Of a stretch of 64,000 nucleotides of DNA, positions 24,315 through 64,000 are shown in pieces. Source of the DNA: Lampris incognitus (taxonomy: Eukaryota; Chordata; Actinopteri; Lampriformes; Lampridae); assembly GCF_029633865.1 (NCBI RefSeq), contig NC_079213.1, positions 87,517,293-87,581,292 of the forward strand, read 5' to 3'. The notes below the pieces were generated by a model. The model saw nothing but the letters and a program-made list of their open reading frames with translations. It searched no databases and was not told where the DNA came from. Both the position numbers and the translations under genes were made by a program. Each line of letters opens with the position of its first letter. Positions within the stretch are counted from its first letter, which is position 1.

Positions 24315-24997
24315 ATGGCTACGAACGCCGTTGCAATTAAACTGCCGGAGTTTTGGGAGTCTTCCGCGGCTACGTGGTTCACACAGGCTGAGGCACAGTT
24401 CGCGCTCAGAGACATAACAGCAGACGAAACCAGGTACTACTACGTAGTGGCAGCGCTGGGGTGCGCTACGGCTTCCAGGATAAGCGGTTTCATAACCAAC
24501 CCACCGGCCGATGGTAAATATGCCGCAGTTAAACATCTCCTCCTTGAAACTTTTGAACTGTCAACAACGGAGAGAGCACGTCGCCTCTTCGCCATTCAGG
24601 GCTTGGGAGATGGCAAACCATCGGAGCTAATGAGCAGGATGTTAAACCTACTGGGTCAAGAAAAGCCATGTTTCCTGTTTATGGAGCTGTTTCTGCGCCC
24701 CACGTCCAGACTGCGCTCGCTAACTCCATCATCACTGATCCCCGTGAGCTGGCAAAGGAGGCTGACCGATTCTTCGTCGCTACACAACGTTCCTCCCATG
24801 CCGGGGTGCTGGCTCCTACCTTCACTGGCCTCCCGCCGACATCGCGGGCGTGGCCCGACGGTGGCGCCACAGCGTCAGACCGCTACAAACCCTCTGGACT
24901 CTGTATGTACCACGCTCGATTTGGTGCGAAAGCTAAACGGTGCCGTTCCCCCTGCAACTACAGGCCGACGGGAAACGAGAGGGCCAACACTCAGTAG
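24315..24997 (+). pseudogene. Innermost gag, one frameshift
   Basis: Gag starts MATNAVAIKLPEFWESSAAT and runs through a conserved capsid-like region (YYVVAALG, then LLETFELSTTERARRLF). The reading frame changes near 24690-24700, after which HVQTALANSIITDPRELAKE and a C-terminal [14 protein letters not shown] motif follow to a TAG at 24997. This Cys-His motif replaces a standard zinc knuckle. Pol overlaps its end in another frame. Confidence 0.85.
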
Positions 24998-27900
24998 TGG
25001 CCATGAGTGTTGGCGATACGAGCAGGCTACTCTTCATCCTCGACACCATCTCCGGTCGGCGATTTCTTTGTGACACGGGCGCACAGAGAAGCGTGCTCCC
25101 TGCTACTGACGTCGACATCATGGGCGGGGAGCGGGGCCCCCAGTTGGCGACGACTGACGGCAGCCCTATCCACACCTACGGCGTGCGGTCTGTAGAACTG
25201 TGTTTTGGTGGACAACGTTTCACGTGGGAGTTCGTCATGGCCAATGTAACGCTTCCCCTCCTCGGAGCTGATTTTTTGTGCGCTTTGCTTTACGGTTTGC
25301 TAGTGGACATTCAGAACAGCCGTCTGGTCGATGCCTTAACCTTCTCCTCCTTCGCATGTACGCGGAGGGAAGCGGCCTATGCAGGTCTAGCCAACTCTCT
25401 CTCAGAGGCAGACAAGTGCAACCGCCTCCTCGCTGAGTTCCTTGACCTCACCCAGCCTACCTTCTCTGCACCCACCGCTAAGCATGGGGTGGAGCATCAC
25501 ATTGCTACGAAGGGGCCCCCGGTCTACGCCAGAGCCAGGCGTCTCGACCTCGCCAAACTCGCCATTGCCAAGTCTGAGTTCGAGCACCTGGAACGCATGG
25601 GGATCATCCGCCGCTCTGACAGCCCGTGGGCGTCCCCACTCCACATCGTCGCTAAGCCTGATGGAGGTTGGCGCCCATGCGGGGACTACCGCCGACTAAA
25701 TGACGCCACCACGCCCGACCGCTATCCTGTCCCGCATATCCAGGACTTTTCTGCAAACCTGTCTGGCAAACGCGTCTTCTCAAAAGTCGACCTGGTCCGT
25801 GGTAATCATCAAGTTCCCGTGCACCCCTCGGACATCCCCAAGACAGCGGTGACTACCCCATTCGGCCTATTTGAATTCCTACGAATGCCATTTGGACTCA
25901 AAAACGCGGCCCAGTCCTTTCAGCGGCTGATGGATTCAGTGCTCCGTGGCCTTCCTTTCATCGTCGTCTATTTGGACGACATACTCATCGCCAGCGCCTC
26001 CGAGGAAGAACACCTGTCCCATCTTCACGCCCTCTTCACACGCCTCAGCCAGCATGGGCTGATCGTCAACCCGGCGAAGTGCCGGTTCGGGCTGACGGCC
26101 ATTGATTTCCTCGGGCACCGCATCACTGGGGACGGGGCAGTCCCCCTGCCCTCAAAGGTGGAAGCGGTGGCGGCCTTTCCGCGCCCCCAAACAGCTCGTG
26201 CGCTCAGGGAGTTCATCGGGATGGTGACATTCTACCACCGCTTCATTCCCCGAGCCGCCTTTATCATCCGGCCACTGTATGAGGCGCTGAAAGGCATGTC
26301 CCCCAACCAGGCGGTCGACTGGACAGCAGAGCGGGACCGTGCGTTCACCGAGACTAAAGCTGCGCTCTCCCAGGCTACCCTGCTAGCGCATCCTTCACCT
26401 ACAGCGCCTATTTCCATAACCACGGATGCATCGGACTATGCTGTTGGTGCGGTTCACGAACAGTGGGTGGGGGGGGCTTGGCAGCCTTTGGCCTTTTTCA
26501 GTCGCCAGCTTACACCCCGAGAGCGCAAGTATAGTACTTTTGACAGGGAACTCCTCGGTCTCTGGCTCGCCGTCCGGCATTTCCGTTTCCTGCTAGAGGG
26601 CCGCGAGTTTACTGCGTACGTGGACCACAAGCCCCTCACGTTTGCCATGTCCAAGACGGCCGAGCCATGGTCCGCTCGCCAGCAGCGACAACTCTCCTAC
26701 ATTTCGGAATTCACTACCGACATCCAGCACGTTGCTGGTAAGTCTAACCAGGTAGCTGACTGCCTCTCTAGGGCAGTGATTGGAGCGGTCCACCTAAGCC
26801 TGGACTATGCACAGATGGCCGCTGACCAGGCCACGGATCCGAGCATCCTCTGTCTCCGGACCTCCGACACGGGGCTCCGCCTGCAGGACGTTCCTTTCAG
26901 CGACACAGGTGTCACCCTCCTGTGTGACGTCTCCACAGGACAGCCCAGGCCCATCGTCCCGCACAGCTGGAGACGCCCCGTATTTGAAGCTGTGCACGGC
27001 CTCTCTCATTCAGGCGGTAAGCCATCCGTGCGCCTGACCTCTGCTAAGTTTGTGTGGGAGGGACTTAAGAGAGACGTGAAAGCGTGGGCCGACTCGTGTG
27101 TTGCCTGTCAGCGGGCTAAGATACACCGCCACATTAAGGCGCCCCTGGAACGCTTCGCAGTGCCAGAGAGACGATTTGACCATGTCCACGTCGACCTGGT
27201 TGGTCCCCTACCCCCCTCCCATGGGTTCACCTACCTCTTCACTGTGGTGGACAGGACTACGCGCTGGCCTGAAGCTGTTCCCCTGGCATCCACGACGTCT
27301 GCTGATGTGGCCCGGGCTTTTATTGGGTCGTGGGTCTCACGTTTCGGTACGCCTTCCGACCTTTCATCTGACCGCGGGCCACAGTTTACCTCAGAGCTAT
27401 GGAATGCTGTGGGTGAGGCTCTGGGCATCAAGCTTCATCGCACTACCGCCTACCTCCCTCAGGCGAACGGCCTATGTGAGCGCTTCCACCGATCCATGAA
27501 GGCTGTGCTTCGGGCTACTCTCAAGGACTGAAACTGGGTCGACAAGCTCCCATGGGTCATGCTGGGCCTGCGGACCGCCCCGAAGGAAGACCTACAAGCC
27601 TCCTCTGCGGAGCTGGTGTACGGCACGCCGCTGCGAGTCCCAGGCGATTTTATTCCCAACGCAACGCGTCTCTGGTCAGCTGTGGACCAACGAGCCTCCT
27701 TGCTGGACGGGGTCAGAGCTTTCACACCCGTCCCTACCACCCAACACGGCGCTCCGGTGTCCCAGGTGCCCCCAGGTCTGCAGTCAGCGGACTACATGTT
27801 CATCAGTCACGACGCACACCGCCCCCCTCTGCAACCCCCTTATGACGGCCCCTTCCGCGTCCTGGAACGGGGAACTAAGCACCTGGTGGTGGATTTTGGG

Positions 27901-28992: not shown

Positions 28993-31900
28993 ATGTGTAA
29001 AAGTAAACCCAAGAATGACTATGGCAGAGAGAGGAAATACAGAGAAGGGAAACTGGAATTTAAAGGCAAAAGCAAAGCATCCAAACACAGCGGGAGAGAT
29101 AATAAGAAGAAGAAAGTGCATTGTGTGGAGGCCAGTGACAATGAAAGTACAAGTGAAGGGACTAAATCTGACACTGATAACGAATTGCCATGTTATGCAC
29201 TGTCTCGTAAGGGTAAATATTCACGTGTATCTGTGTTACCTGAAATAAATGGTAAGAAAATGGAAATGGAATTAGACACAGGGGCTGCTGTATCTTTAAT
29301 TTCATGGGAACAGTATAAAAGTACAATGAAAAAGGTGCCATTGCAGCCTACTGATGTAGTCCTTAGGACGTATACAGGTGAACCTTTGTTACCAGAAGGG
29401 GTTATTAATGTGAAAGTAAACCTGAATAAGCAAACAGCTGAGTTACCATTGTATGTTGTAAAAGTGAATGCAGCTCCACTATTTGGTAGAGAGTGGCTGA
29501 GAGCTATTAAGCTTAACTGGAAAGACTTAAAAACTGTGTATGGTGTACAACTTGAAAAGAAAGACAGTTTAGATGCTGTACTAAACCGGCATTCTGCTGT
29601 GTTCTCAGATGGGTTGGGTTCAATGAAAGACATTAAGGCGAGAGTGACTCTTAAACCTGATAGCATACCCAAATTCTGCCCACCACGTAATGTGCTCTAT
29701 GCTCTGAGATCCAAAGTAGAGGCTGAACTGACCCGCCTCACTGACCTTGGCATGATCTCACCAGTGGAGCATAGTGACTGGGCCACACCCGTAGTTCCTG
29801 TCAACAAGAAGGATGGCACGGTGAGACTTTGTGGTGATTTCAAAGTCACCCTCAACCAAGCACTCTGTGTGGACAAGTATCCTATTCCACGCATTGAGGA
29901 TCTCTTTTCATCGCTAGCTGGAGGTCAACGCTTCAGTAAACCGGACTTGTCAAACGCATACCTACAGATGGAAGTAGTGGAGGAGTCGAGGAAGCTACTG
30001 ACTATTTTCACACAAAAAGGACTTTTCTGCTACAACCGCTTGCCCTTCGGTATTGCGTCGGCACCAGCGTTGTTCCAGAAGGCTATGGATCAAGTGCTCG
30101 TTGGATTGCCATTCACGCACTGTTATCTTGATGACATTCTGGTTAGTGGGCCAGATGAAGAGACCCACCTGAAAGCCCTGGACGACGTTCTCACGAGACT
30201 GGAGGAGTATGGTCTCCATGTCAAAAAGGATAAGTGCATGTTTGTCCAGAAGTCAGTAGAGTATCTAGGTCATATCATCGATGCTGCCGGGCTCCAGAAG
30301 TCGCCAGAGAAGGAACGCGCTGTTGTGGAGGCACCGGCACCCACAAACGTTAGCCAACTACGCTCGCTCCTCGGAATGATAAACTACTATGGACGTTTCA
30401 TCCCGGACCTGGCAACCAACCTGCAACCACTGAACGCACTGCTGCACAAAGGGAAGAAATGGCAGTGGACTACAGCTTGTGAGGCAGCGTTCCGAAAAGT
30501 GAAAGAGCTCATGGTATCTCAGAAGGTGCTAACCCACTACAACCCTGAGCTGCCCCTCCATCTAGCCTGTGACGCTTCACCCTATGGGGTAGGGGCTGTA
30601 CTCTCTCACGTCATCCCTGATGGTGTAGAGAAACCTATCACTTATGCGACAAGAACACTCAGCAAAGCAGAGCAGAACTACGCCCAGATTGAGCGAGAGG
30701 CGCTGGGGATAGTCTTTGGCATACGTAAGTTTCACCAGTATCTCTATGGTAACAAGTTCACTCTACTCACAGACCATCGCCCGCTGACCTCCATTCTCAG
30801 TCCAGTGAGGAGTACGCCGTTGATGGCCGCAGCCCGCATGCAGCGCTGGGCGCTCCTCTTGTCAGCGCATGATTACATTATAGAGTATCATAAGGCTTCA
30901 GCACATACTAATGCAGATGGACTGTCAAGGTTGCCACTTCCGGACACTCATGATGACAAGATAGACACCGTAGATGTGTTTTACATGTCACAGTTAGACA
31001 CACTACCAATCAGTACCACTGATATCCGAAACAACACTAGATCTGACCCTACACTGTCTCGCGTACTAGAGATGGTCACTATTGGACATTTTCCAAACAC
31101 GAAAAACACAGATACTGAACTGTCTGTTTTCCTGACTCATCAAAATGACCTCACAATCCAACAGGGATGCCTCATGTGGGGCACACGAGTGGTAGTGCCA
31201 CCCAAGCTACGGCCCCGGGTGCTCAACGAGCTACATACAGCACACCCAGGGGTAGTGAGGATGAAAAGGTTGGCACGGTCGTATGTCTGGTGGCCAGGTA
31301 TTGACTCTCAGATCGAGCTCCAGGCCAAATCCTGCCACTCATGCCAGCGTAGTCAGAAAGAACCGAGTCTTGCCCCTCTACATCCATGGATGTGGCCTTC
31401 CGGTCCTTGGGAAAGGATTCACGTGGACTTTGCTGGTCCATTTGAAGGACACATGTATCTTGTGGTAGTAGATGCTCATTCTAAATGGCCCGAGGTGCAA
31501 ATCATGGATAGCACCACAGCAAGCAAGACCATCACAGTACTGAGGGGCCTTTTCAGTCGCCACGGCCTTCCTCACATTCTCGTAAGCGACAATGGACCCC
31601 AGTTCTGTTCTGAGGAATTCACCACATTCCTGAAAGCCAATGGAGTCAAGCACATTCGCTCAGCGCCGTATCACCCTGCTACGAACGGCCTGGCCGAGCG
31701 CTTTGTACAGACTTTCAAACACGCCCTCAAATCCTCCAGGGGCGCCGCACCAGTGCAACAGCGGCTCGACACATTCCTGTTGACGTATCGCAACACCCCG
31801 CACGCCACGACAAAGGAACCGCCGGCTATGCTGTTCACAAGGCGCATGCTACGCACGCGACTGGACTTTCTCAAACCCAGTGTGGCTGGGGTTGTTCATC

Positions 31901-32397
31901 GCTCTCAAGACTCACAGCAACAACGCCGTCAACAACACTCCAAGGCCAGACACTTTGCAGTCGGTGAGTCTGTCCTTGTTCGTGATTACCGGAAGGGGGA
32001 GGAAAAGTGGACACAAGGAGTTATAATGACTCAAACGGGACCAGTGTCATACGAGGTCAAGGTGGGAGCACAGGGAGTGTGGAAACGCCATGTGGATCAG
32101 ATGTTGACTCGAACAGAGCAGGCACACGCGGACGCTGCCAGCTCTGCAGTCCACCTTCCTACCAGCTTCCCTATGTCACCTCAACGTAGTGCTGGTGGTA
32201 CTACACGTCACCTCGGTACCCCTGCATCTCACACTGATGAGAACACTAATCCAGTTCCAGTGGCTATCGAGCCCACGGAGACACCTCACTCCAGTGAACC
32301 AGCTGGTGCTGGACCTACTAAGATAGCGGAGACTGTTAGACACTCGCGCTATCCGGTGAGACATACTAAACCACCTGCACGTTACTCTGCTGAGTAA
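28993..32397 (+). CDS. Middle element pol polyprotein, open frame of 1,134 codons
   Basis: One uninterrupted frame carries the full gypsy pol set. Protease has DTGA at residues 95-98. RT has LPFGIASAPALFQ and YLDD (378-381). RNase H has CDAS (526-529) and TDHRPL (593-598). The integrase finger is His748/His751 with Cys781/Cys784. The integrase core is Asp812, Asp866 and Glu902, with exactly 35 residues between the last two. The first Met shown is not a real start, because pol is normally made by readthrough or frameshift from gag. RT motif A usually has a V/L-D-L core and here reads KPDLSNAYL. The pol frame looks competent, but its own gag is broken by the innermost insertion. Confidence 0.93.
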   Translation: MCKSKPKNDYGRERKYREGKLEFKGKSKASKHSGRDNKKKKVHCVEASDNESTSEGTKSDTDNELPCYALSRKGKYSRVSVLPEINGKKMEMELDTGAAVSLISWEQYKSTMKKVPLQPTDVVLRTYTGEPLLPEGVINVKVNLNKQTAELPLYVVKVNAAPLFGREWLRAIKLNWKDLKTVYGVQLEKKDSLDAVLNRHSAVFSDGLGSMKDIKARVTLKPDSIPKFCPPRNVLYALRSKVEAELTRLTDLGMISPVEHSDWATPVVPVNKKDGTVRLCGDFKVTLNQALCVDKYPIPRIEDLFSSLAGGQRFSKPDLSNAYLQMEVVEESRKLLTIFTQKGLFCYNRLPFGIASAPALFQKAMDQVLVGLPFTHCYLDDILVSGPDEETHLKALDDVLTRLEEYGLHVKKDKCMFVQKSVEYLGHIIDAAGLQKSPEKERAVVEAPAPTNVSQLRSLLGMINYYGRFIPDLATNLQPLNALLHKGKKWQWTTACEAAFRKVKELMVSQKVLTHYNPELPLHLACDASPYGVGAVLSHVIPDGVEKPITYATRTLSKAEQNYAQIEREALGIVFGIRKFHQYLYGNKFTLLTDHRPLTSILSPVRSTPLMAAARMQRWALLLSAHDYIIEYHKASAHTNADGLSRLPLPDTHDDKIDTVDVFYMSQLDTLPISTTDIRNNTRSDPTLSRVLEMVTIGHFPNTKNTDTELSVFLTHQNDLTIQQGCLMWGTRVVVPPKLRPRVLNELHTAHPGVVRMKRLARSYVWWPGIDSQIELQAKSCHSCQRSQKEPSLAPLHPWMWPSGPWERIHVDFAGPFEGHMYLVVVDAHSKWPEVQIMDSTTASKTITVLRGLFSRHGLPHILVSDNGPQFCSEEFTTFLKANGVKHIRSAPYHPATNGLAERFVQTFKHALKSSRGAAPVQQRLDTFLLTYRNTPHATTKEPPAMLFTRRMLRTRLDFLKPSVAGVVHRSQDSQQQRRQQHSKARHFAVGESVLVRDYRKGEEKWTQGVIMTQTGPVSYEVKVGAQGVWKRHVDQMLTRTEQAHADAASSAVHLPTSFPMSPQRSAGGTTRHLGTPASHTDENTNPVPVAIEPTETPHSSEPAGAGPTKIAETVRHSRYPVRHTKPPARYSAE

Positions 32398-32804: not shown

Positions 32805-34422
32805 ATTGATTGGTCATCGGCCAGAATTTTAAGTTGGGGTCCCGTCTGTCATGCCTTATGCCTCCAGTCTGCTCTGCCTCAGTCTGTCCCCTGTCGGGTG
32901 TCAAGCCCTGGCTCCAGGAATGCCAAGCCCGATGCTCTGTCTCGTGTGCATGGGAAGGAGTCTGAGCCCAGGCTCCAACCTGACACCATCGTTCCCTCTA
33001 CCTGTTTGGTTGCGGCTGCGGCTGTCACCTGGAACATTGAAAGGGAGGTCATGGCAGCACAACAGACTCAGCCTGACCCGGTCCCCCTGGGCGCTTGTTT
33101 GTTCCAGATGCTGTTAAATCTAGTGTGTTGCAGTGGGCTCACTCTTCCAAACTTACCTGCCATCCTGGAGTAACCCGTACCCTAGCCTTCCTCCGCAGGC
33201 GGTTCTGGTGGCCTTCCATGACGGAGGATACTGGGTCTTTTGTTTCTGCCTGTCCTGTTTGTGCCCAGAATAAGCCCTCCACTCAGGCCAGTGCCGGTCT
33301 GCTGCGCCCCCTGCCTGTTCCACACCGTCCCTGGTCGCATCTGTCCTTGGATTTCGTCTCTGGTCTGCCCGCCTCCGACGGTAACACCGTTGTACTGACT
33401 GTTGTTGATCGCTTCAGTAAATTTGTTCACTTTTTGCCCTTGTCTAAACTGCCTTCGGCCCGAGAGACTGCGGATCTGCTGGTCAGGGAGGTTTTCCGGG
33501 TCCACGGTCTTCCCCGTGATATAGTGTCTGACCGTGGCCCCCAGTTCACTTCTGCTGTCTGGAAGGCTTTCTGCTCTGCCATCGGTGCCACCGTCAGCCT
33601 GTCATCGGGTTTCCATCCTCAGACCAACGGCCAGGCCGAGAGGGCCAACCAGGCATTGGAGACGGTTCTCCGCTGTCTGGTGTCTGCGAACCCATCCTCT
33701 TGGTCCTGACAACTCCCCAGGGTAGAATATGCCCATAACACCCTGTCATCGTCTGCTACTGGGTTGTCCCCTTTTCAGTGCCTTTACGGCTATCAGCCCC
33801 CCCTTTTTCCTTCTCAAGAGGTAGACATTCCGATTCCATCTGTCCAGGCCCATGTCCGTTGGTGCCGTCGGACCTGGCGGCAAGCCCGTGCTGCACTGCT
33901 CGGGACCTCCAGCCGTTACCAGCGCTTGGCAGATCGTCATCACACCCCTGCTCCGGACTACTCCCCCGGTGACCAGGTATGGCTCTCTACCAAGGATCTA
34001 CCCTTGAAATCGGACGCTAAGAAACTGTCCCCCAGGTATATTGGTCCCTTTCCCATTGTCAAAGTCATTAACCCCTCTGTGGTCCGTCTGAAGCTGCCCC
34101 GCGCTCTCCGGGTTCACCCTTCCTTCCATTGGTCCTGCCTCAAACCTGTCTCTACCAGCCCTCTAGTTCCTCCGGTCCCCTCGCCCCCACCTCCTCGTCT
34201 GATCAACGATCATCCGGCTTACACCGTTCGTCGTCTCCTGGACTCTCGTCGCCGCGGTCGCGGCCTGCAGTATCTCGTGGACTGGGAGGTATATGGCCCG
34301 GAGGAGAGGTGTTGGGTCCCTCGTCGCCTGGTCCTGGACGCGAACCTCATCCGGGACTTCCACAGGACGCACCCTGATGGGTCTGGTAGGTCGCCCGGTG
34401 GCGCCCCTCGGAGGGGGGGTAC
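32805..34422 (+). pseudogene. Outer element integrase and chromodomain
   Basis: After a short post-protease piece and the linker [14 protein letters not shown] come the integrase finger (His, His, then CPVC at 33248-33262) and a DD35E core ([27 protein letters not shown]) in the frame 33095-33709. A TGA at 33707-33709 breaks it, and a following frame from 33764 to 34444 holds the rest. That frame ends in a chromodomain ([34 protein letters not shown]). Chromodomains in this position direct chromoviruses to marked chromatin. Confidence 0.88.
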
Positions 34423-34844: not shown

Positions 34845-35355
34845 CACACACGCTAAAATATGATAGAGAGGCAGAAGCAGATAGTGGCAGTAAAGTCAGC
34901 TATTTTAATAAGTTGAAGAAACAATATATGATTAGGCTATATAAATATATAAACAGTATATGAACACATTATATATCTACAGTATATATATAACAATAAT
35001 ATGTTATATATCAGAGAAAATGAAAATATATACAAATCCCCGCCCAAAACCATATTTACACATGTACAAAGTTGCTTACATGGGTGACCAGTACATTACA
35101 CACAATGGACAAACGTAAACACTGACAACACAAAATATTTACGTGAGGGTAGGAAGTATACAGTGTGTGTGTGTGTATAATAAAGTGGTATAATACTGTA
35201 ATAATATCGTAATTATATCCAATAGTATGATGTAATAATAAAAAATAAATACAGATATACATATATATTTTAAAGAGAGATAAATATATAAACAATGTAG
35301 CATAACAATGTAGGGGAAAAATAAAAGTTGCTAATTAAATTTTGACATGAAACCC
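34845..35355. other. A/T-rich intergenic, no gene seen
   Basis: It contains low-complexity TATA runs and a short (GT)n near 35165. No recognisable feature was found. Confidence 0.6.
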
Positions 35356-35655
35356 CTAAAACCCTTGAAAGAGAACTGTTTTGCAGAGTTTCTTTCTCGT
35401 GCTCCCTTTCTGCAGGTCAAGAGAGGTGAGTTTTGCAATGTGGTGCAACCTTATCTTGAGAAACACAGACACAACCAAAGATAACAAGTTGTAGTGGTGG
35501 TTGTCGATGCCAAACTGTATCTCCTCAATGTGTTCCCCAAGCAGAAAAACATCCTCCGTGCCAATCTCCTCTCGGACGATGTGGGTGACTGTAGACAGCT
35601 TTGGAGTTTGCTTTGTTACAGCTTGGCGAATCACCCTCTCTGCAGCTCTCAGCAC
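35356..35655 (-). pseudogene. C-terminal fragment of a DNA transposase (P/THAP-like)
   Basis: A minus-strand frame reads VLRAAERVIRQAVTKQ, SVFLKIRLHHIAKLTSLDLQ and RKKLCKTVLFQGF followed by a TAG. The ending K-x-R-x-H-H...RKKL-K-VLF-G is one I associate with C-termini of P-element/THAP9-like transposases in animals. The catalytic part is absent; its left side is replaced by an AATAAT run and another repeat. The assignment is from motif memory only. Confidence 0.4.
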
Positions 35656-36367: not shown

Positions 36368-37342
36368 ATGGAGCGAAAGAAGAGCAGGTGGCCCACATTC
36401 AACGGACAGGCCGATGAGTATGAACTGTGGGAAGAGCGAATGCTCTGTTGCATGCATGGTGTGGGGCTGAAAACCAACATTCTTACCGAGCCCGTGGGAC
36501 CTTTGACAGTGGAAGAGCAGGCCCTAGACGAAGAGCGGAACGCGGACGCCTACTGCGCATTGGCGCCTTTATTGGACAACACAAGCTTGGGACTGATCTT
36601 CAGAGAAACGAAGAACAGAGGTAGAGAGAGTCTACGGGTGTTGCGGGAACATTACATTGTTAAGGGCAGACCCCGGATTGTCACTCTGTATGTAACATTG
36701 ACTGGGCTAAAGAAAGCTGATAATGAGACGATAACCAAATACATTATCCGAGCTGAACAAATCATTACGGCTCTCAAAGGGGCGGGAGAAGCACCGAGTG
36801 AGGGACTAATGATGGCCATGGTGATGAGGGGGTTACCCGAGAGATATAAGCCATTCACTCTAATGGTGACACATGGCGACAGTGAGTTGACATTGGGACA
36901 ATTTAAGGCCAAATTGAGAAACTTTGAGGCGGCAGAAGATGTAGCTAATGCTACAGCATCGGAGGAGACGTCCGAGAAGATGATGAAGGCCCACGCAGCG
37001 CCTAAGAAAAAGCCAGTGAAACGCTGTGAGGGAGATGATGAACAAACGGTGTGCTGGCGATGCGGTGACAAAGGCCATCGGAAATCGGACTGTTCACGCA
37101 GCGTGTGGTGCAGCTTCTGCCGGGTCAAGGTCACACGGACAAAGTGTGCAAGAAGAAGGACGGCGTTGATGGAGCCAGGTGTGCACGCGAGCAAGGTGGC
37201 GGCGGCGGTGGTGGTCACGGAGCAGGTCGAGGTCAGGGACCGGGGAATGCTGCGGAAGAAGAGAACTACATCTTCAGAGTGCAGGCTGGAGAGACCAGCT
37301 CAGCAGGACCAGGACGACGGCAACAGTTCAAACCAGGATTGA
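36368..37342 (+). pseudogene. Ty1/copia gag with zinc knuckle
   Basis: The frame begins at a clear ATG (MERKKSRWPTFNGQADEYEL) and has the copia gag core (LREHYIVKGRPRIVTLYVTL, MRGLPERYKPF). It then has a CCHC knuckle CWRCGDKGHRKSDC (C-x2-C-x4-H-x4-C). In copia elements gag and pol share one frame. Here the frame changes just after the knuckle, near 37118-37130, so downstream protease sequence is read in another frame. Confidence 0.85.
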
Positions 37343-38189: not shown

Positions 38190-40478
38190 GGCAGAATCAC
38201 CTGAATCTTTCTCTCTCCTAACCCCTGACACTGCTACTACTGATCTTCTTCTCTCTACCCTCTCCTCTTCTCTGGACAATCTCTTGTCGCCTCACCTCCA
38301 GGCCTGCATGCCCAACTCCACCTGCCCCTTCGCTGTCCAACTCAGTACATACTGACAGACAGAGCTTAAGAGTGGAGAAAAGGCAAACTCCCAGAGGACC
38401 TTCTCAACTTCCAATCTCTTCTTTCCACTTTCTCCTCCTCCCTTTCTGCTGCTAAGGCTGTCTTCTATCGCTCTAAAATCATATCCTCTTCCTCTAATTC
38501 TAAGAAACTCTTTGAAACCTTCTCTACACTTCTTCAATCCCCACCTCCTCCTCCTACTTCCTCCCTTCTCCCTGATGACTTCGCTAACTTCTCTGACAAC
38601 AAGGTAAACGGCACCAGATCCTCCTTTTCTCACCACCTGGTTAGTGCTGCTTGCACTATCCCACCCTCTGCACCCTCCCTCACCTCTCCATGTCCCACCC
38701 TATCCCACCTCGCTCCCCTCTCCCCTGACGAGGTCCTCAACCTCATCACATCCAGTCGCCCCACCACATGCTCCCTTGACCCGGTCCCCTCTCTTTAGTC
38801 TATACCACCTGAACTGCTTCCCTTTCTAACCCACCTCATCAGCACCTCCCTCCAGGCAGGATGCTTTCCATCTGCCTTCAAGACTGCTAGAGTCATCCCC
38901 CTTCTCAAGAAACCATCACTTAATCCTTCTGACGTCAAAAACTACAGACCAGTTTCCCTTCTACCCTTTCTATCCAAAACTTTTGAACGTGCTGTCTTTA
39001 ACCAGCTTTCTTTTTACTTCCATCAGAGCAACCTCCTGGACCCCAACTAGTCTGGGTTCAAGGTGGGTCACTTGACAGAGACGGCCCTACTTGCAATGAC
39101 AGAATCGCTGCACTCTGCAAGAGCAAACTCTCTCTCCTCTGTCCTGATACTCCTGGACCTGTCAGCTGCGTTTGACACAGTGAACCACCAGATCGTCCCC
39201 TCTACCCTCGAGGGGCTGGGTGTCACAGGCTCTGCACTCTCAATGTTTGCATCCTACCTGACGGGTCGCTCCTACCAGGTGACATGGAGGGGATCTGTGT
39301 CAGAGCCTCGCAGACTGACTACAGACATTCCACAGGGTTCGGTTCTGTGTCCTCTAATTTTTTCCCTGTACATGACATCCCTGGCTTCTGTTATTCGCTC
39401 ACATGACTTCTCTTACCATTGTTATGCTGATGACACCCAGCTGATCTTGTCCTTTCCTCCCTCTGACACACAAGTAGAGACACGCATTGCTGCGTGCTTG
39501 ACTGACCTCTCGGAGTGGATGGTGACACACCACCTGAAACTCAATCTGGACAAGACAGAGCTGATGTTCCTCCCGGGGAAAGGTTGCCCGCACCGAGACC
39601 TGGCCATCACCATTGACAACACCGTGGTGACACCAACTCGGACTGCGAGGAATCTGGGTGTGATCCTGGATGACCAACTGTCGTTTGCTGCAAACGTTGC
39701 ATTGGTTGCTCGCTCCTGCAGATTTCTCCTCTATAACATCAGGAGGATTCGCCCATTCCTCACTGACGAGATGGCATAGGTGCTCATCCAGGCTCTGGTC
39801 ATCTCCCGGCTGGACTATGGCAACTCCCTCCTTGCTGGCGCCCCGGTGTCGGCCATCAGACCTCTGGAGCTTGTTCAGAAAGCTGCAGCTCGTCTGGTGT
39901 TCAACCGCCCTAAGTTCTCCCACACAACTCCCCTTCTCATGTCCCTACATTGGCTCCCAGTAGCTGCTCTCATCCAGTTTAAGACTCTGGTGCTAGCCTA
40001 CAGGGCAGTGAAAGGAACAGCTCTTTCCTATCTCCAGGCCATGGTCAAGCCCTACACCCCCACCCAACCACTTCGCTCTGCTGCCTCAGGACGCCTGGTT
40101 GCCCCGTCGCTCAGAGGCCCCTGCTGCCGATCGACCTGATCACGACTCTTTTTTGTCCTGGCCCCACAGTGGAGGAGTGAACTCCCCACTGTTGTCAGGA
40201 CAGCGGAGATGCTTCACATCTTTCGGTGCAGGTTGAAAACTCTCCTCTTCAAGAACTACTACCCTGTTACTTGTTCTTAGCACTTATTGTATTCACTCAT
40301 TTTAAAAAAAATCTCTTTCTTGCGCTTTTACTTTAGCACTGATTTTGCTCTTAGATGCTTGTTTAGATGCACCTATGACCTCTGATGACTAGTAGTTCTG
40401 ATTTTCTACGTTAGATGCACTTATTGTAAGTCACTTTGGATAAAAGCATCGGCTAAATGACTGTAATGTAATGTAATG
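38190..40478 (+). pseudogene. L2-like LINE, 5'-truncated RT
   Basis: A non-LTR RT reads LLDLSAAFDTVNHQIV, DIPQGSVLCPLIFSLYM and HCYADDTQLI (the YADD catalytic site), then HHLKLNLDKTELMFLP and NLGVILDDQLSF. A stop at 39777-39779 is followed by the C-terminal segment ISRLDYGNSLLAG with LQLVQKAAARL-like sequence. Upstream frames 38200-39050 are heavily broken. The 3' end is TAAGTCACTTTGGATAAAAG followed by a (TAATG)n tail, typical of fish L2-clade LINEs. The 5' end is truncated and no endonuclease domain was seen. Confidence 0.85.
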
Positions 40479-55822: not shown

Positions 55823-57515
55823 TTAGGGGTCGCCACAGCGGATCATCCGTTTCCATTTCTTCCTGTCTTCTGCGTCTTCCTCTGTCACACCAGCCACCTG
55901 CATGTCTTCCCTCACCACATCCATAAACCTCCTCTTTGGCCTTCCTCTTCTCCTCTTCCCTGGCAGCTCCATATTCAGCATCCTTCTCCCAATATACTCA
56001 GCATCTCTCCTCCACACATGTCCAAGCCATCTCAATCTTGCCTCTCTTGCTTTGTCTCCAAACCGTCCAACCTTAGCGGTCCCTCTAATATAATCGTTCC
56101 TAATCCTGTCCTTCTTCGTTACTCCCAGTGAAAATCTTAGCATCTTCAACTCTGCCACCTCCAGCTCCGCCTCCTGTCTTTTCGTCAGTGCCAATGTCTC
56201 CAAACCATATAACATAGCTGGTCTCACAACCATCTTGTAAACTTTCCCTTTAACTCTTGCTGGTACCCTTCTGTCGCAAATCACTCCTGACACTCTTCTC
56301 CACCCACTCCAACCTGCCTGCACTCTCTTTTTCACCTCTCTACTGCACTCCCCGTTACTTTGGACAGTTGACCCCAAGTATTTAAACTCAGATGTCTTTG
56401 TCACCTCCACTCCTTGCATCCTGACCATTCCACTGTCCTCTCTCTCATTCACGCATAGGTATTCCGTCTTGCTCCTACTGACTTTCATTCCTCTTCTCTC
56501 CAGTGCATACCTCCACCTCTCCAGGCTCTCCTCAACCTGCACCCTACTCTCACTACAGATCACAATGTCATCCGCGAACATCATCGTCCATGGAGACTCC
56601 TGCCTGATCTTGTCCGTCAACCTGTCCATCACCATTGCAAACAAGAAAGGGCTAAGAGCCGATCCTTGATGTAATCCCACCTCCACCTTGAACCCATCCG
56701 TCATTCCAACCGCACACCTCACCATTGTCACACTTCCCTCATACGTATCCTGCACCACTCCTACATACTTCTCTGCAACTCCTGACTTCCTCATACAATA
56801 CCACACCTCCTCTCTCGGTACTCTGTCATAAGCTTTCTCTAAATCTACAAAGACACAGTGCAACTCTTTCTGGCCTTCTCTATACTTCTCAATCAACATT
56901 CTCAAAGCAAACATCGCATCTGTGGTGCTCTTTCGTGGCATGAAACCATACTGCTGCTCGCTGATCGTCACCTCTCCTCTTAACCTAGCTTCTATTACTC
57001 TTTCCCAAATCTTCATGCTGTGGCTGATCAACTTTATACCTCTGTAGTTGTTACAGTTCTGCACATCGCCCTTGTTCTTGAAAATCGGTACCAGTATGCT
57101 TCTTCTCCACTCCTCAGGCATCCTCTCACTTTCCAGGATTGTGTTAAACAATCTAGTTAGAAACTCCACTGCCATCTCTCCTAAACATCTCCATGCCTCC
57201 ACAGGTATGTCATCAGGACCAACTGCCTTTCCATTCTTCATCCTCTTCATAGCTGCCCTCACTTCCTCCTTGCTAATCCGCTGAACTTCCTGATTCACTA
57301 TCCCTACATCATCCAACCTTCTCTCTCTCTCATTTTCTTCATTCATCAGCCCCTCAAAGTATTCCTTCCACCTTCTTAGCACACTCTCCTCGCTTGTCAG
57401 CACATTTCCATCTCTATCCTTGATCGCCCTAACTTGCTGCACATCCTTTGCAGCTTGGTCCCTCTGTCTAGCCAATCGGTACAAGTCCTTTTCTCCTTCC
57501 TTAGTGTCTAATCTG
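55823..57515 (-). pseudogene. RTE reverse transcriptase part
   Basis: It carries the RT core ([54 protein letters not shown]) and FADD at [14 protein letters not shown]. The C-terminal region ([20 protein letters not shown]) ends MIRCGDP followed by a stop. The frame is otherwise open; only the shift from the endonuclease part breaks the element. In-frame sequence from 57724 to 57516 is a shadow of the endonuclease reading. Confidence 0.9.
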
Positions 57516-58814
57516 TCACAACTCACCATACGCCTTTTCCTTTGCCTTTGCCACCTCTCTCTTTGCTTTACGCTGCATCTCCTTGTACTCCTGTCTACTT
57601 TCTTCATCTCTCTGACTATCCCACTTCTTCTTTGCCAACCTTTTCCTCTGTATAATTTGCTGTACTTCCTCATTCCACCACCAAGTCTCCTTGTCTTCCT
57701 TCCTCTGTCCTGATGACACACCAAGTACCTTCCTAGCTGTCTCCCTCACTATTTCTGCAGTGGTTTTCCAGCCATCTGGCAACTCTTCACTACCACCCAG
57801 TGCCTGTCTTAACTCCTGCCTGAACTCCACACAACAGTCTTCCTTCTTCAACTTCCACCATTTGATCTTCGGCTGTGTCTTCACTCGCTTCCTCTTCTTG
57901 GTCTCCAAAGTCATCCTACAGACCACCATCCGATGCTGCCTGGCTACGCTCTCCCCTGTCACCACCTTGCAGTCTCCAATCCCTTTTAGATGGTGCCTTC
58001 TACATAAGATATAGTCCACCTGTGTGCACTTTCCTCCACTCTTGTACGTCACCCTGTGTTCCTCCCTCTTCTTGAAATATGTATTCACCACAGCCATTTC
58101 CATCCTTTTCGCAAAATCGACCACCATCTGTCCTTCCACATTTCTCTTCTTGACTCCATACTTTCCCATCACCTCCTCATCACCTCTGTTCCCTTCACCA
58201 ACATGTCCATTGAAGTCCGCTCCAATCACCACTCTCTCCTCCTTGGGTACCCTCTCCACCATGTCGTCCAACTCATTCCAGAATTCTTCTTTTTCATCCA
58301 TCTCACACCCAACTTGCGGGGCATATGCGCTGATAACATTCAGCAATAAACCTTCAATTTCCAGCTTCATACTCATCACTCTGTCTGACACTCTCTTCAC
58401 CTCCAGCACGCTCTTGACATACTCTTCCTTCAGAATTACCCCTACCCCATTTCTCCTCCCATTCACACCATGGTAGAAGAGTTTGAACCCACCTCCGATA
58501 CTCCTGGCCTTACTCCCCTTCCATCTGGTCTCTTGCACACACAGTATGCCTACCTTTCTTCTTTCCATCATGTCAGCCAGCTCTCTCCCTTTACCAGTCA
58601 TAGTGCCAACATTCAAAGTTCCAACTCTCACCTCCACATGCCTACCCTTCCTCCTCTCTAGCTGCCTCTGCACATGCTTTCCTCCTCTCCTTCTCCTTCG
58701 CCCAACAGTAGCATAGTTTCCACCGACACCCTGCTGGTTAACAGTACCGGTGGCGGTCGTTGGTAACCCGGGCCTCGACCGATCCGGTATGTAAGTCTTA
58801 TTTATGATCCGCAT
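57516..58814 (-). pseudogene. RTE endonuclease part
   Basis: The frame has the endonuclease motifs in order: VGTLNVGTMTGKG, ILCVQETRWKG, VIGADFNGHVG, CTQVDYILCRR and SVARQHRMVV. A lysine/arginine-rich linker follows. It ends at a TGA at 57516, where the RT frame should continue. A small indel at 57515-57520 separates the two, since RTEs normally encode both in one frame. Confidence 0.9.
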
Positions 58815-59049: not shown

Positions 59050-60026
59050 ATAAACATTATTTTAAGTTAGTAAAGAAGACTGAGAAGGACAAAAAAAGAA
59101 AACCACAAATCCCTTCTGGTGGCTCTGCAGGCTGTTTAGGCCCCACAAGGACAATTCAGCACACATTAAAATAGTCCATGGGCCAGACGATATTTCGGTA
59201 CACTCAAGGTGGCAAAACTTACTTATAATTTTTGAAAGGATCCATGTCTGTAGATGATATTTTGGTATGATAACCATTCCTGAGTGGCAGCTGTATCACA
59301 GTTATCAGCTCATGAAGTTAACCACCCGCTAAACTAAATTGCATTTTAGACGCTGGTGCATATCCTGGTTTAGCCTCATGGTCAGGACATTTTTCAATGT
59401 TCTATAATATTGTCTTTGGTATCATTTTAAAGGGGACCTTCTTAGCTTTCATTCAAGCCCTGTTGTGGATATTTCTCACATATATAGAGGTCACTTGAGC
59501 TCTTCAACCCGTGAATAACACACATCTTTCTGCAATTTTCGCCTAAACTATATACTTTCTTTTAGCCCTGTGGCATCTAGGAATATCAGGGACACAAAAC
59601 ACAAAAACTGGAATACTCACAGGACTGTAAAGATTCAGAAAATGTATAATATACCCATACTATTTCATTGTGTGAGGTGATTGTGAGCCTTAAATGAGAA
59701 CTAGACCAAAGCCAGTTAGGTCACAAACTGGTCTCTATACATTTGTTTAAATACACAATCAAAATACATGATAAAAAGGAATACCATAGTGAGGTAATGA
59801 ACTATTTTAATATTTTAAACAACATTGACATTTACATATACTTAGTCAATGATACATGTAATCCCATATCATTAGTGGGTATATGTAATGGTAATGGGTA
59901 GGGTAATGGGTATATGTGAATATGGTTACATTATTGTTATCAAGCTCTGGGTAACCAAGTCCAGAATCAACATCCTGTGCATCAATAGACTACTACCACA
60001 GTAATACCATCAGAATCATCACACTG
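59050..60026. other. No gene seen; 3' flank of the FEN1-like gene
   Basis: It is A/T-rich with no frame of note. It would contain the 3' UTR or the transposon end belonging to the minus-strand gene at 60027. I could not spot terminal repeats because the other end lies outside the window. Confidence 0.5.
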
Positions 60027-63000
60027 TCATTCATCAAACTGCTCGTTTCTCTCATCATCTGACTCCCCAAGTTCAAAGTCCAGTTCTGGACCATCCTGCT
60101 GTTTTTGGTTACTGCAGGTCTGTAACCTGCACATGTCTGTGCATCGAAGTCCGTTTGACAGGCACATGCAGCTTGGCATTTTGCATGAATGCACACACTT
60201 GCATGTTAGCATTTCCAAGACCACATCTGGTGCAGGTGGGGAGCGCATCCAGTAAATGGCCAGCTTGCCTTCATCGTCTGTCCATCCATACTCAGTAGGG
60301 CTTGGCACCACAGGGTTAGCCTGCAGACAGCACTTCCATATTGCTGCCTGATAGTTGGCTCGTTGAACATGCGTAAAGAGACAGTCTCTACATAGTGGCA
60401 GCTGGCTGGACTCAACCTCTCCCCTTTTGGTGCAGAAGAGCTGGTAACGCAGTTTGTTCACCCCAGCAGTGCTGCTATTAGCAACATACATCCGACAGGT
60501 GAACTGCTCAATTTTCTGGAACAGCTCATCACTCACATTCCATGTCTGTCCCAGTTGACTAAAAGTCTCTTGGCAGGAAGTGTGCTTTCTCACTATCTTC
60601 AGGGCATTCAGCTTCCCTCGACCAGCGAATGCACTGACAGTGTCGCAGCCTGTGAAGGCATGTAAGCCAATTAGGCTGTCACAGATGCTGTCTCCAAGTG
60701 AACTTGCCAGTTTGGTGATGTCGACAAACCGTGTGCGGTTCTGAGTCCCACACTTCTGGTAGATGGGACAGGTGATGTCCTTCTGGAAGCCAAGACAAAG
60801 CACCATGACATCAGTGTCCTCAGCTGTGATGATAACTGACTTTGAGCCCGCATTTGCTGCATGCAATGCATGCAGGAGCAGACGGGTGTCAGCTTCTTCA
60901 TGTGTGGAGTGCAGTTCTGCTGCTTCCTCACACCCATCTTCTGTCAACTTGTAGCAGGTTTCCTCACAGGTCATGTACAACACCTTGCCATGCAGCATAG
61001 CTCTGTATCGTGGGAGTTTCCACTCTTCCACCAGAAACTTGATGAGACTGGTCTTGTTGGAGGAACTGCACAGACATTTTCTCCACTGCTGGACGTGGTG
61101 TCCCCCTGCAAGATTCTTGTACCGGAGAGTGATGTCTCCACCCCGGTTCAGTCGTTCAGCATCTTTGATCGAAGTCTGGTGATAGACATCAAAAACAACA
61201 TCAATCCTCCCAGTCTGTGCTCCCTCATGGAGGACCTGGGTCAAGGCTGACTCTGCCACCTGTACAAAGGTTTTGTTGTTGCCATTCATTTTTTGGACCA
61301 GGCTCATCCCATCAATGATGGAAGTAGATGGGATTGGGATGTCTTCTGCAGGAGATACATTCTTTTCCAGCTCTCTGGCAAGTGCAGCCTTGTTTGTTTT
61401 TCGTAAGGACCCATCAGCATTTGCCAGTGCCCATGGTAATGGGCCCAATGGGTAGGCAAGGACATCCTTCAGATTCACCTTCCTGCTTTCAGCCACCAGG
61501 ATCATGTGACTGAAAAGGTTTCTATCTGCCTTCAGCACCACATCCTGTGCTTTCTTTCCATGAGCTTGTTTTGTGCTGACATTGGAGAATGTTTTCAGAC
61601 TTTGCTTGGTCATCTTGTCGTGGAATTTCACAGGTGGTGGGTCTGCATCTAACCTTGTTTGCTGGAATGCTTGGTAGGCCTCTTCTCCTTTCTCAAGAGC
61701 TCTCAAGAGATCTATGGTCACATCAGGTGGAGCCATGTTGCCAGTGGAGAGGCTAACCAAATCAATCTCATCAGGGGACATAGGATTGAGCCAGTTATTC
61801 TCCATAAGGTCCATGAGAGACTGGACATCTGCTTCATCTCTCTTGATCCTTGGACTCTGTAGATCTGGATGAGACCATTTGCACCTGCCTTGACCTGTCA
61901 GGTCTCTCAGCTGTCTGAGGTACATGCTTCTATACTCAGCTGTGAGATAATATTTGGTCACAGCTCCTGGCTTCAAGCTGAATCCCTTTGTCCCTCCAGC
62001 TGTTTGGGTGTCTTTGTTCACCGTTTCTTCTATAGCTTGGTCAACAGGGATTCGGCCAAAGGGATTGGTGGAGCCCAGTTGGACTGAGAAGCCTCCTTCC
62101 ATGAATTCTGTGTACACATCTGGGTGTGTGATGGGCAGCTCAGACATCTGGGCGTAGTAGTAGGGGAGGTAGCGTGCATAATTCATCCTGTCATAAGCCA
62201 AGCACCATGGGATCATTGCTCGAATGCTAGCCAAGTGTAGCATCCAGTCTCCCTCTCTGGATGCTCGGATGAGCCCCAACAAGATTTCAACCATGTCCAA
62301 ATAGGACATCCAGAAGTTCGAGAGGCTGCCGTTTCCACCTCTAAGGAACTCACGGTAGACTTCAAATAGATCCATGATGCGTGTACAAGAGCTGTTCTCG
62401 AGGACCTCCTTCAAAGCATGTTGTGAGACTTCTTTCCCAAGGCTGTCAATGGTCTTCAGTGTCTCATTCAGGTGAACCATGTCATTCCTGTGAGTTTCTT
62501 CCAACCAGGACAGGAAACCATTGAAGGTCAGTCGCATGAGAGCCTCATACAGGAGCTTGTGTAGTCACACTGCCCTGTTGTACTTGCGGCCATCCATAAC
62601 ACCAGCAATTGAGCCTTCTGCAATCATGCCAGACTCAATGCAGAGGTCTTTGAGTCCAGCATCTTGGAAACGCTTTCCTATTATTGCCAGCAGTGTGCAG
62701 ATGGTGTGGAATACCCCAAGCCTAACGATGATATCATGGAACTTGTCATGGTGTTTCCATGTGATCTCGACAGCCTTCGCATACAGGGCTTGGTCAAAGA
62801 CACGGACAATCTTCCTCAGGCCTAAGCACTGCATGATGCTCAGTGACTGGTTAAGCACCTCGTTGACAGTAGACATTTGTGTCGCTGGAGCATTGATGGT
62901 AGGCAGATAGCCTATATTGTCGGGGATGACCGTCATCTCTCCTCGAGTCAGGATGTTGAAGCCTGTCCAGCTGCTGACTGACTGTTCTTCTTGTTGTGAC

Positions 63001-63998
63001 ATGCGTGCTAGGACCCAAAGAAGGTTTTTCTCTCTGGCAAGCTTAGTATTGGCTGCAGTATCGGCATCTGACTTTTTGCTTTGTGGTGGCCCTACCCGTT
63101 GTCCAGCATTGTAAGTTGGTAACATTGGTGGGGGTCCATCAATGCTTCTCTTCTTTGTTTTGGGAACAGTGGGCATGGGTTGGACAGGAAGTGGGTTGAC
63201 TGGCTTTGCTTGCACAGCAATCCCATTGACTCTGTGAGATGTTCCCTCACCACTGACAGTTTCTTCAAGACGGTCGATATTGTCCCAGGCTAAAGTTGTG
63301 AATATGCCAGGATGGATGTTAGCTGGAAGGGCAATGCCACTCCCTGATGATGAGAGTTTCTGGAGACACAGGGCAGTGTTGATCTCTTCCATCTGTGAAT
63401 AGGGCACACTGTGACCAAGTCGGTTGAGGATGTTTATCAACTCTACATTTCCTGTCAACGATTTGACACTGAATGGCAGAACAATGTGCTTGGAAGGCTT
63501 GGTATTTCCACATGTCACTGCATATACTATGTCATGGCCAAATGACTGCAGAAGGCGCTGCACTCTCTGGGATGCATGATCAGGATCATTTGAGCCTGTG
63601 AGTAGAGAGTACAGGAAGATAATGAGCGACTCTGGAATGGTAGGACATTCTGCTTCTGGTTTGACTTCAGGCGGCCAGGTTTGAGGAACATCTTGACTTT
63701 TAATGTCTGCTCTCAATTTGATGGCTGCTTTGGCTATAACATCTTGTGCACTGACACTTTTCAGGGTCTGCAGCTCCCTTTTGAGAGACTGATTTTCTTT
63801 GGCAAGTTCCCTCATGGACAAGTTATCGGGATAGAGGAGGAATTTTCCTTTCTCATCAGGGAATATCTGCAAGGCTCCAGCAAACTCACTCTCCAGGTTT
63901 CGCCTTCTGTGCTTCTTGGTTGATTCCTTGACTTGGGCAATGCCTTGGGAGTTCATTGAAGCTACCAGTCTAGAAGAGAGATCAGTCATTGTCATCAC
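60027..63998 (-). CDS. Uncharacterised large protein: FEN1/PIN-like nuclease plus CXC cysteine cluster, 5' end outside window
   Basis: A single minus-strand frame runs from the window edge to 60027, interrupted by only one TGA (62565-62567). The first 477 codons begin with basic sequence and a short coiled coil (ELAKENQSLKRELQTL). The remaining frame is counted from the Met at 62537. It has FDVYHQTSIKDAERL (Asp450), THEEADTRLLLHA (Glu547, Glu548, Asp550), TAEDTDVMVL (Asp574, Asp576) and FTGCDTVSAFAGRGK (Asp632). This spacing and motif type match FEN1/XPG nucleases (EAEA, T-E-D-M-D, L-G-C-D). Residues 779-808 hold eight Cys arranged C-x-C-x3-C-x4-C-x-C-x6-C-x3-C-x4-C, like a TSO1/tesmin CXC domain. 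I recall similar unnamed proteins in fish and cnidarian genomes. A mobile origin is likely but unproved. Confidence 0.75.
62565..62567 (-). other. In-frame TGA in the FEN1-like gene
   Basis: The frame on both sides is the same: YNRAV, then TGA, then LHKLLYEALMRL. The codon is consistent with CGA to TGA decay at a CpG. A start from the Met at 62537 would still give 836 residues with all nuclease motifs. Confidence 0.85.
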
Positions 63999-64000
63999 TT

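Follow-up and report, generated by a model that had tools for sequence, protein, structure and literature searches.

A high-copy DNA transposon of Lampris incognitus, likely of the AcademX lineage, with one protein predicted to combine a DDE-type transposase core with a FEN1/EXO1-like nuclease

Introduction

Transposons of the AcademX lineage, which was reportedly first described by Kojima in 2020, carry an XPG-like nuclease together with a cysteine cluster. According to the relevant portion of one paper, AcademX elements encode a nuclease and make 3- or 4-bp target duplications, AcademH elements encode a helicase and make 9- or 10-bp duplications, and the length of the duplication seems related to which of the two enzymes is encoded, a relationship proposed there without a test (PMC10045372). 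Academ elements average 5,565 bp in a curated bivalve library (PMC10294476), compared to 6,790 bp for the element considered here. This element lies at the end of a 64,000-nucleotide stretch of the 1.48-Gb genome of Lampris incognitus (contig NC_079213.1; G000:C3:87517293-87581292 in our coordinates), which we call the window. We conclude with good confidence that it is a high-copy DNA transposon with long terminal inverted repeats (TIRs), in which one protein holds both a predicted DDE transposase core and a predicted FEN1/EXO1-like nuclease, and that it is likely an AcademX element of the Academ superfamily.

Results

The whole element spans G000:C3:87576464-87583253, corresponding to 59172-65961 in window coordinates. 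The window holds the following parts of the element and its gene:

59172..64000, minus strand: part of the DNA transposon inside the window, with common borders from the alignment of 20 fetched copies
59172..59719, no strand: right TIR, about 548 nt, with its tip exact in the window
59168..59171, no strand: target-site duplication of the window copy, by the right end; TTTT in a run of T, so 3 or 4 bp
60027..64000, minus strand: 3' part of the transposase-nuclease gene, with its stop codon at 60029-60027; a 1,558-codon open reading frame (ORF) in intact copies
62565..62567, minus strand: in-frame TGA at residue 713 of 1,558, the sole stop inside the gene of the window copy

We searched the genome with an 836-residue part of the protein and found that all 54 places scored (out of 3,706 first-look candidates) were full length and 98-100% identical. 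Twenty copies were fetched with their flanks, and 19 were delimited, the exception being L012, in which the left part is missing; 11 of the 19 measure 6,790 bp and the others 6,759-6,792 bp (the borders of L027 and L028 were set by hand and are one base off). The two ends of copy L017 are inverted repeats of about 550 bp (539 of 581 alignment columns identical), and the tips of the element read TAGTCCATGGGCCAGA on the left and, in gene orientation, TCTGGCCCATGGACTA on the right. Exact occurrences of the 37-base left tip number 1,126 in the genome, counting ends and not proven full copies, while the same pattern read backwards has none. At G000:C1:64692218-64694102 (minus strand), four left tips lie exactly 616 bp apart, in a tandem array of end pieces.

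Both ends could be located within three substitutions in 46 of the 54 scored copies, with one end lacking by this test in the other eight. Among the 46 two-ended copies, we observed duplications of 3 bp in 38, 4 bp in one and 2 bp in three, and none in four, compared to a background of 69 matches at 3 bp in 2,070 pairings of flanks across different copies (3.3%); the duplicated triplets vary between copies. One of the eight, L026, has an indel in its tip and is flanked by TAA at either end by eye, but is left out of this count. Two of the copies with no duplication, L016 and L017, belong to a cluster (with L013, at G000:C2:52.55-52.74 Mb) in which the left flank of L016 is also that of L017 and its right flank is that of L013; such crosswise sharing points to recombination between copies or to segmental duplication and may explain why their duplications are missing. 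The other two are L020 and the copy at C2:52668330. Another unusual copy is L027 (G000:C2:98970000-98979900), in which the left tip, near base 1266 in gene orientation, reads like a right-end tip and the flanks are inverted copies of one another, with no 3-bp duplication; this copy may have arisen from a hairpin or from aberrant transposition.

We also looked for empty sites by joining the flanks of 16 copies, with one duplication kept, and comparing them to the 20 fetched loci and the window. For four copies, a counterpart without interruption (95-100%) runs across the junction: L014 and L019, the empty counterpart of each being within the neighbourhood of the other; L015, with a counterpart at 35327-35622 of the window; and L029 (G000:C2:98354900-98364800), where the element is inserted in another copy of itself. 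Weaker counterparts (72-85%) exist for L013, L020 and L023, and none was printed for the other nine among these loci.

Eighteen copies, with L027 left out, differ by a mean of 0.63% (0.22-0.94%). The 1,558-codon ORF is free of stops in seven of the 19 delimited copies, and by a hand count of the genome table 21 of the 54 copies have a 1,560-codon open frame with no stop. For the seven intact copies, the ratio of nonsynonymous to synonymous differences per site (pN/pS) is 0.60 over 21 pairs, where codons with several differences were split by a fixed rule and the choice of intact copies biases the value slightly downwards; this ratio suggests selection on the protein during the spread. We infer that the spread was very recent and is possibly ongoing. 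Five copies that were considered as a subfamily with the N-terminal part out of frame were rejected as such, as their lesions differ.

In the window copy, the gene is seen on the minus strand as two stretches in the same reading frame, 62565-63998 (477 codons) and 60027-62537 (836 codons), parted by the single TGA; the start codon is at 64703 in window coordinates, 703 bp past the window edge. Since each part aligns in one piece with the 1,407-residue lancelet protein P0003, the 477-residue part with residues 77-556 (60%) and the 836-residue part with residues 567-1392 (62%), we consider this to be a single gene with one in-frame stop. The earlier note on this DNA described a single-exon gene of more than 1,300 codons over 4 kb; its frame in the window is broken by the TGA at 62567-62565.

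Structure prediction gave a DDE transposase core, following an N-terminal region that is predicted to be winged-helix-like. Conservation was counted over 203 database proteins and the locus L001, at most 204 relatives in all, with the number of aligned rows varying by site:

61917..63404, minus strand: residues 434-929, predicted DDE transposase core of RNase H fold, including a helical insertion
63282..63284, minus strand: D474 (WDNID), proposed first catalytic acid, kept in 102 of 103 rows
62793..62795, minus strand: D637 (VFDQ), proposed second catalytic acid, kept in 136 of 136 rows
62028..62030, minus strand: E892 (IEET), proposed third catalytic acid, kept in 175 of 178 rows

The position of E892 was set by its offset from the ends of the aligned structural range and not by residue superposition. 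Two nearby aspartates are also conserved, D477 next to D474 (103 of 103 rows) and D888 close to E892 (177 of 178). The glutamate of REGDW, our first choice for the third acid, was dropped since it is kept in only 135 of 168 rows, and the distant rows that differ mostly have T or Q. The best structural match of the core, including the helical insertion, is the hAT transposase Hermes, with 9% identity across the aligned part. However, hAT elements make target duplications of 5-8 bp, typically about 8 bp (PMC12730594), compared to 3 bp here, and only the element described here carries a nuclease. In some relatives (P0101, P0125, P0143, P0179, P0201 and L001), the transposase region has a weak match to the Pfam family DUF6589 (PF20231), above the Pfam cut-off in P0101 alone among those scanned. 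Because the weak matches fall in this region, DUF6589 may be a transposase domain; we found no mention of this family in the literature searched.

Behind the transposase core, structure prediction gave a second domain with its own set of conserved acids:

60297..61394, minus strand: residues 1104-1469, predicted nuclease domain of FEN1/EXO1 type
61311..61313, minus strand: nuclease acid D1131 (IDGM), kept in 191 of 194 rows
61188..61190, minus strand: nuclease acid D1172 (VFD), kept in 191 of 194 rows
60888..60896, minus strand: nuclease acids E1270 and D1272 (EEAD), kept in 189 of 189 and 186 of 189 rows
60810..60818, minus strand: nuclease acids D1296 and D1298 (EDTD), kept in 181 of 187 and 185 of 187 rows
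60642..60644, minus strand: nuclease acid D1354 (GCD), kept in 178 of 181 rows and followed by the GRGK turn

Thus, the predicted structure and the alignment together contain a PIN/FEN core with seven ordered acids and a subsequent glycine turn (G, G and K kept in 168, 170 and 176 of 181 rows). The FEN1, EXO1 and XPG (Rad2) nucleases share this fold, the order and spacing of the acids and the glycine turn past the last acid, although identity in the structural rows is about 10-15% and the domain is fused here behind a transposase; the assignment of the seven acids follows the FEN1 numbering. Among the family members scanned, the Pfam XPG model was not listed, but HMMER filters drop weak matches. 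A search of PDB sequences was empty for the window protein and for profile A1, and profile A2 gave just two weak matches, both to isomerases (E 1.7 and 2).

These results bear on the earlier note, which proposed a FEN1/XPG-type nuclease on the basis of four acidic motifs and described an eight-cysteine cluster after them. Both were located as it stated, and structure prediction, which could have returned no PIN/FEN fold, supports the one proposed. IDGM (61313-61311), which the note overlooked, is the first acidic motif and completes the seven-acid FEN1 set. On the other hand, a reading of the nuclease as the engine of the element is not supported, given the predicted DDE core in the same protein, which the note had not seen.

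The C-terminal cysteines form one group of eight, conserved in relatives:

60114..60203, minus strand: CXC-like cluster of eight cysteines (C1501-C1530)

In order, the eight cysteines are kept in 142 of 143, 142 of 143, 137 of 142, 135 of 141, 141 of 141, 138 of 139, 138 of 138 and 135 of 135 rows. The Pfam TCR model scores above cut-off in P0125 and P0135, scores below it in other relatives and is unlisted for the window protein at E<=1. The cysteine spacing resembles that of Tesmin/TSO1 CXC proteins such as LIN54; in LIN54, a tyrosine sits directly before the fourth cysteine. In the group here, tyrosine is not among the eight commonest residues at that site (R, S, K, D, E, T, Q and N, accounting for 120 rows where the adjoining cysteine is covered by 141, with rarer residues unprinted). 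Base-specific binding of the DNA minor groove by LIN54 relies on tyrosines (PMC4974476). Since the LIN54-type tyrosine is not common in this family, the cluster would more likely bind DNA in another manner. The CXC domain proposed previously is therefore retained as an eight-cysteine, CXC-like pattern, but without this tyrosine as a common feature.

The search for relatives with the 836-residue part, in which only 7,992 candidates were scored, yielded 309 at E<=1e-3, and the best 120, which were listed, include, by the names of the source species, proteins from lancelet, notothenioid, grouper, halosaur, sea anemone, whelk and sea spider. A search from the distant relative L001 gave 84 matches, 83 of them not among the relatives already found, and added echinoderms, a tunicate, hagfish, hemichordates, corals, a bryozoan and other fish. 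Most of the relatives with names are called "uncharacterized", "hypothetical" or "Tesmin/TSO1-like CXC domain-containing", and none of 37 pattern-matching stretches in viral contigs encodes a relative. Two loci come from bacterial assemblies: L001 (JAJRVU010000273.1) shares 81% identity with a protein from a sea cucumber, and L002 (NZ_CAHJWD020000426.1), from a mussel-symbiont assembly, is a decayed relative with 29% identity. Both are most likely animal contamination of these assemblies. L002 has inverted ends TAGTAGGGTGCCC (TAG...), similar in kind to those of the present element, with TTA on both sides by eye, a single case that fits a 3-bp duplication.

The window is also rich in retroelements (24940-27531, 28993-32397, 33095-33709, 36368-37342, 39063-39779 and 55823-58814), with frames for Gypsy-type reverse transcriptase, RNase H and integrase, for Copia-type gag and for another reverse transcriptase, as well as a minus-strand pair of LINE type (endonuclease and reverse transcriptase); the Gypsy and LINE labels are our own reading.

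Discussion

We consider the element likely to be a new member of the described AcademX lineage and not a new kind of element; the earlier note had suggested an unclassified mobile element. It matches the description of AcademX in every point tested: a nuclease is encoded (as a predicted domain), a DDE transposase with an RNase H fold is present in the predicted structure, and 39 of the 46 two-ended copies have duplications of 3 or 4 bp. In contrast, AcademH, reported to belong to the same superfamily, differs in its helicase and its 9-10-bp duplications, and Pfam lists no helicase family for the window protein.

It is unlikely, in our judgment, that the element instead belongs to an undescribed superfamily in which a DDE transposase and a FEN1-like nuclease were joined independently of AcademX. 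In favor of this idea, searches of Pfam, NCBIfam and PDB sequences were uninformative for the window protein and matched no named transposase, leaving only the weak DUF6589 matches in relatives, and the comparison with AcademX is one of described features. However, a nuclease combined with 3-4-bp duplications is what has been described for AcademX (PMC10045372); moreover, the relatives span many animal phyla, and the absence of so widespread a group from repeat databases seems improbable. We found no paper linking Academ with XPG, which says little, as the original AcademX description is outside the literature searched, and with the same limit of coverage nothing was on the subject, by title, for XPG nucleases and DNA transposons. 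Similarly, we found no work joining flap endonuclease, DDE transposase and terminal inverted repeats, a weak result given the limited coverage, and none that joins the tesmin/CXC domain with a transposase or nuclease concerned a transposon by title.

Less probable still is a transposon whose FEN1-like domain has lost its nuclease role and only binds branched DNA or has a structural part. The nuclease activity is itself a prediction, which leaves some room for this reading. Against such a loss, each of the seven catalytic acids is found in 96.8-100% of rows, compared to a median identity of 0.35 over the 136 acidic positions that were evaluated; among rows of less than 45% identity, the counts are still 70 of 73 to 78 of 78. 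Finally, a host gene for DNA repair has in its favor the EXO1/FEN1 fold of the C-terminal part and the database entries of relatives, which appear as LOC genes or CXC-domain proteins. However, there is next to no chance that the locus holds such a gene, with a FEN1/EXO1 paralogue merely within repeat-rich DNA, since the many near-identical copies (54 full-length places and not a single copy), common ends, 3-bp duplications and empty sites refute a host gene at this locus and bear out the earlier note's view that this is a mobile element's main protein.

In the mechanism that we propose, the DDE domain would bind the inverted repeats, free the 3' ends and join these to target DNA that is cut at a stagger of 3 bp. 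The nuclease would remove or trim the non-transferred 5' strands, or flaps, that remain at the ends of the element or at insertion gaps, a task that in transposons with no nuclease would be done by the transposase itself or by host enzymes, and the cysteine cluster and N-terminal modules would bind DNA. Both sets of acids are near-invariant across distant relatives, which argues, at the level of sequence, that both catalytic centres are needed. We propose, tentatively and with somewhat less than even confidence, that the FEN1-like domain acts as a second catalytic centre that the element cannot do without, removing the non-transferred 5' strands during excision or the flaps during insertion, setting the 3-bp footprint and freeing from host repair enzymes an element that is still moving in this genome.

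The "uncharacterised CXC gene" of many animal genomes is thus likely a transposon gene, and so many of the CXC gene models in fish, lancelet, echinoderm, cnidarian and mollusc probably represent transposon protein. Because copies are abundant, near-identical and partly intact, they allow a direct test of what a FEN/XPG nuclease does for those DNA transposons that carry one.
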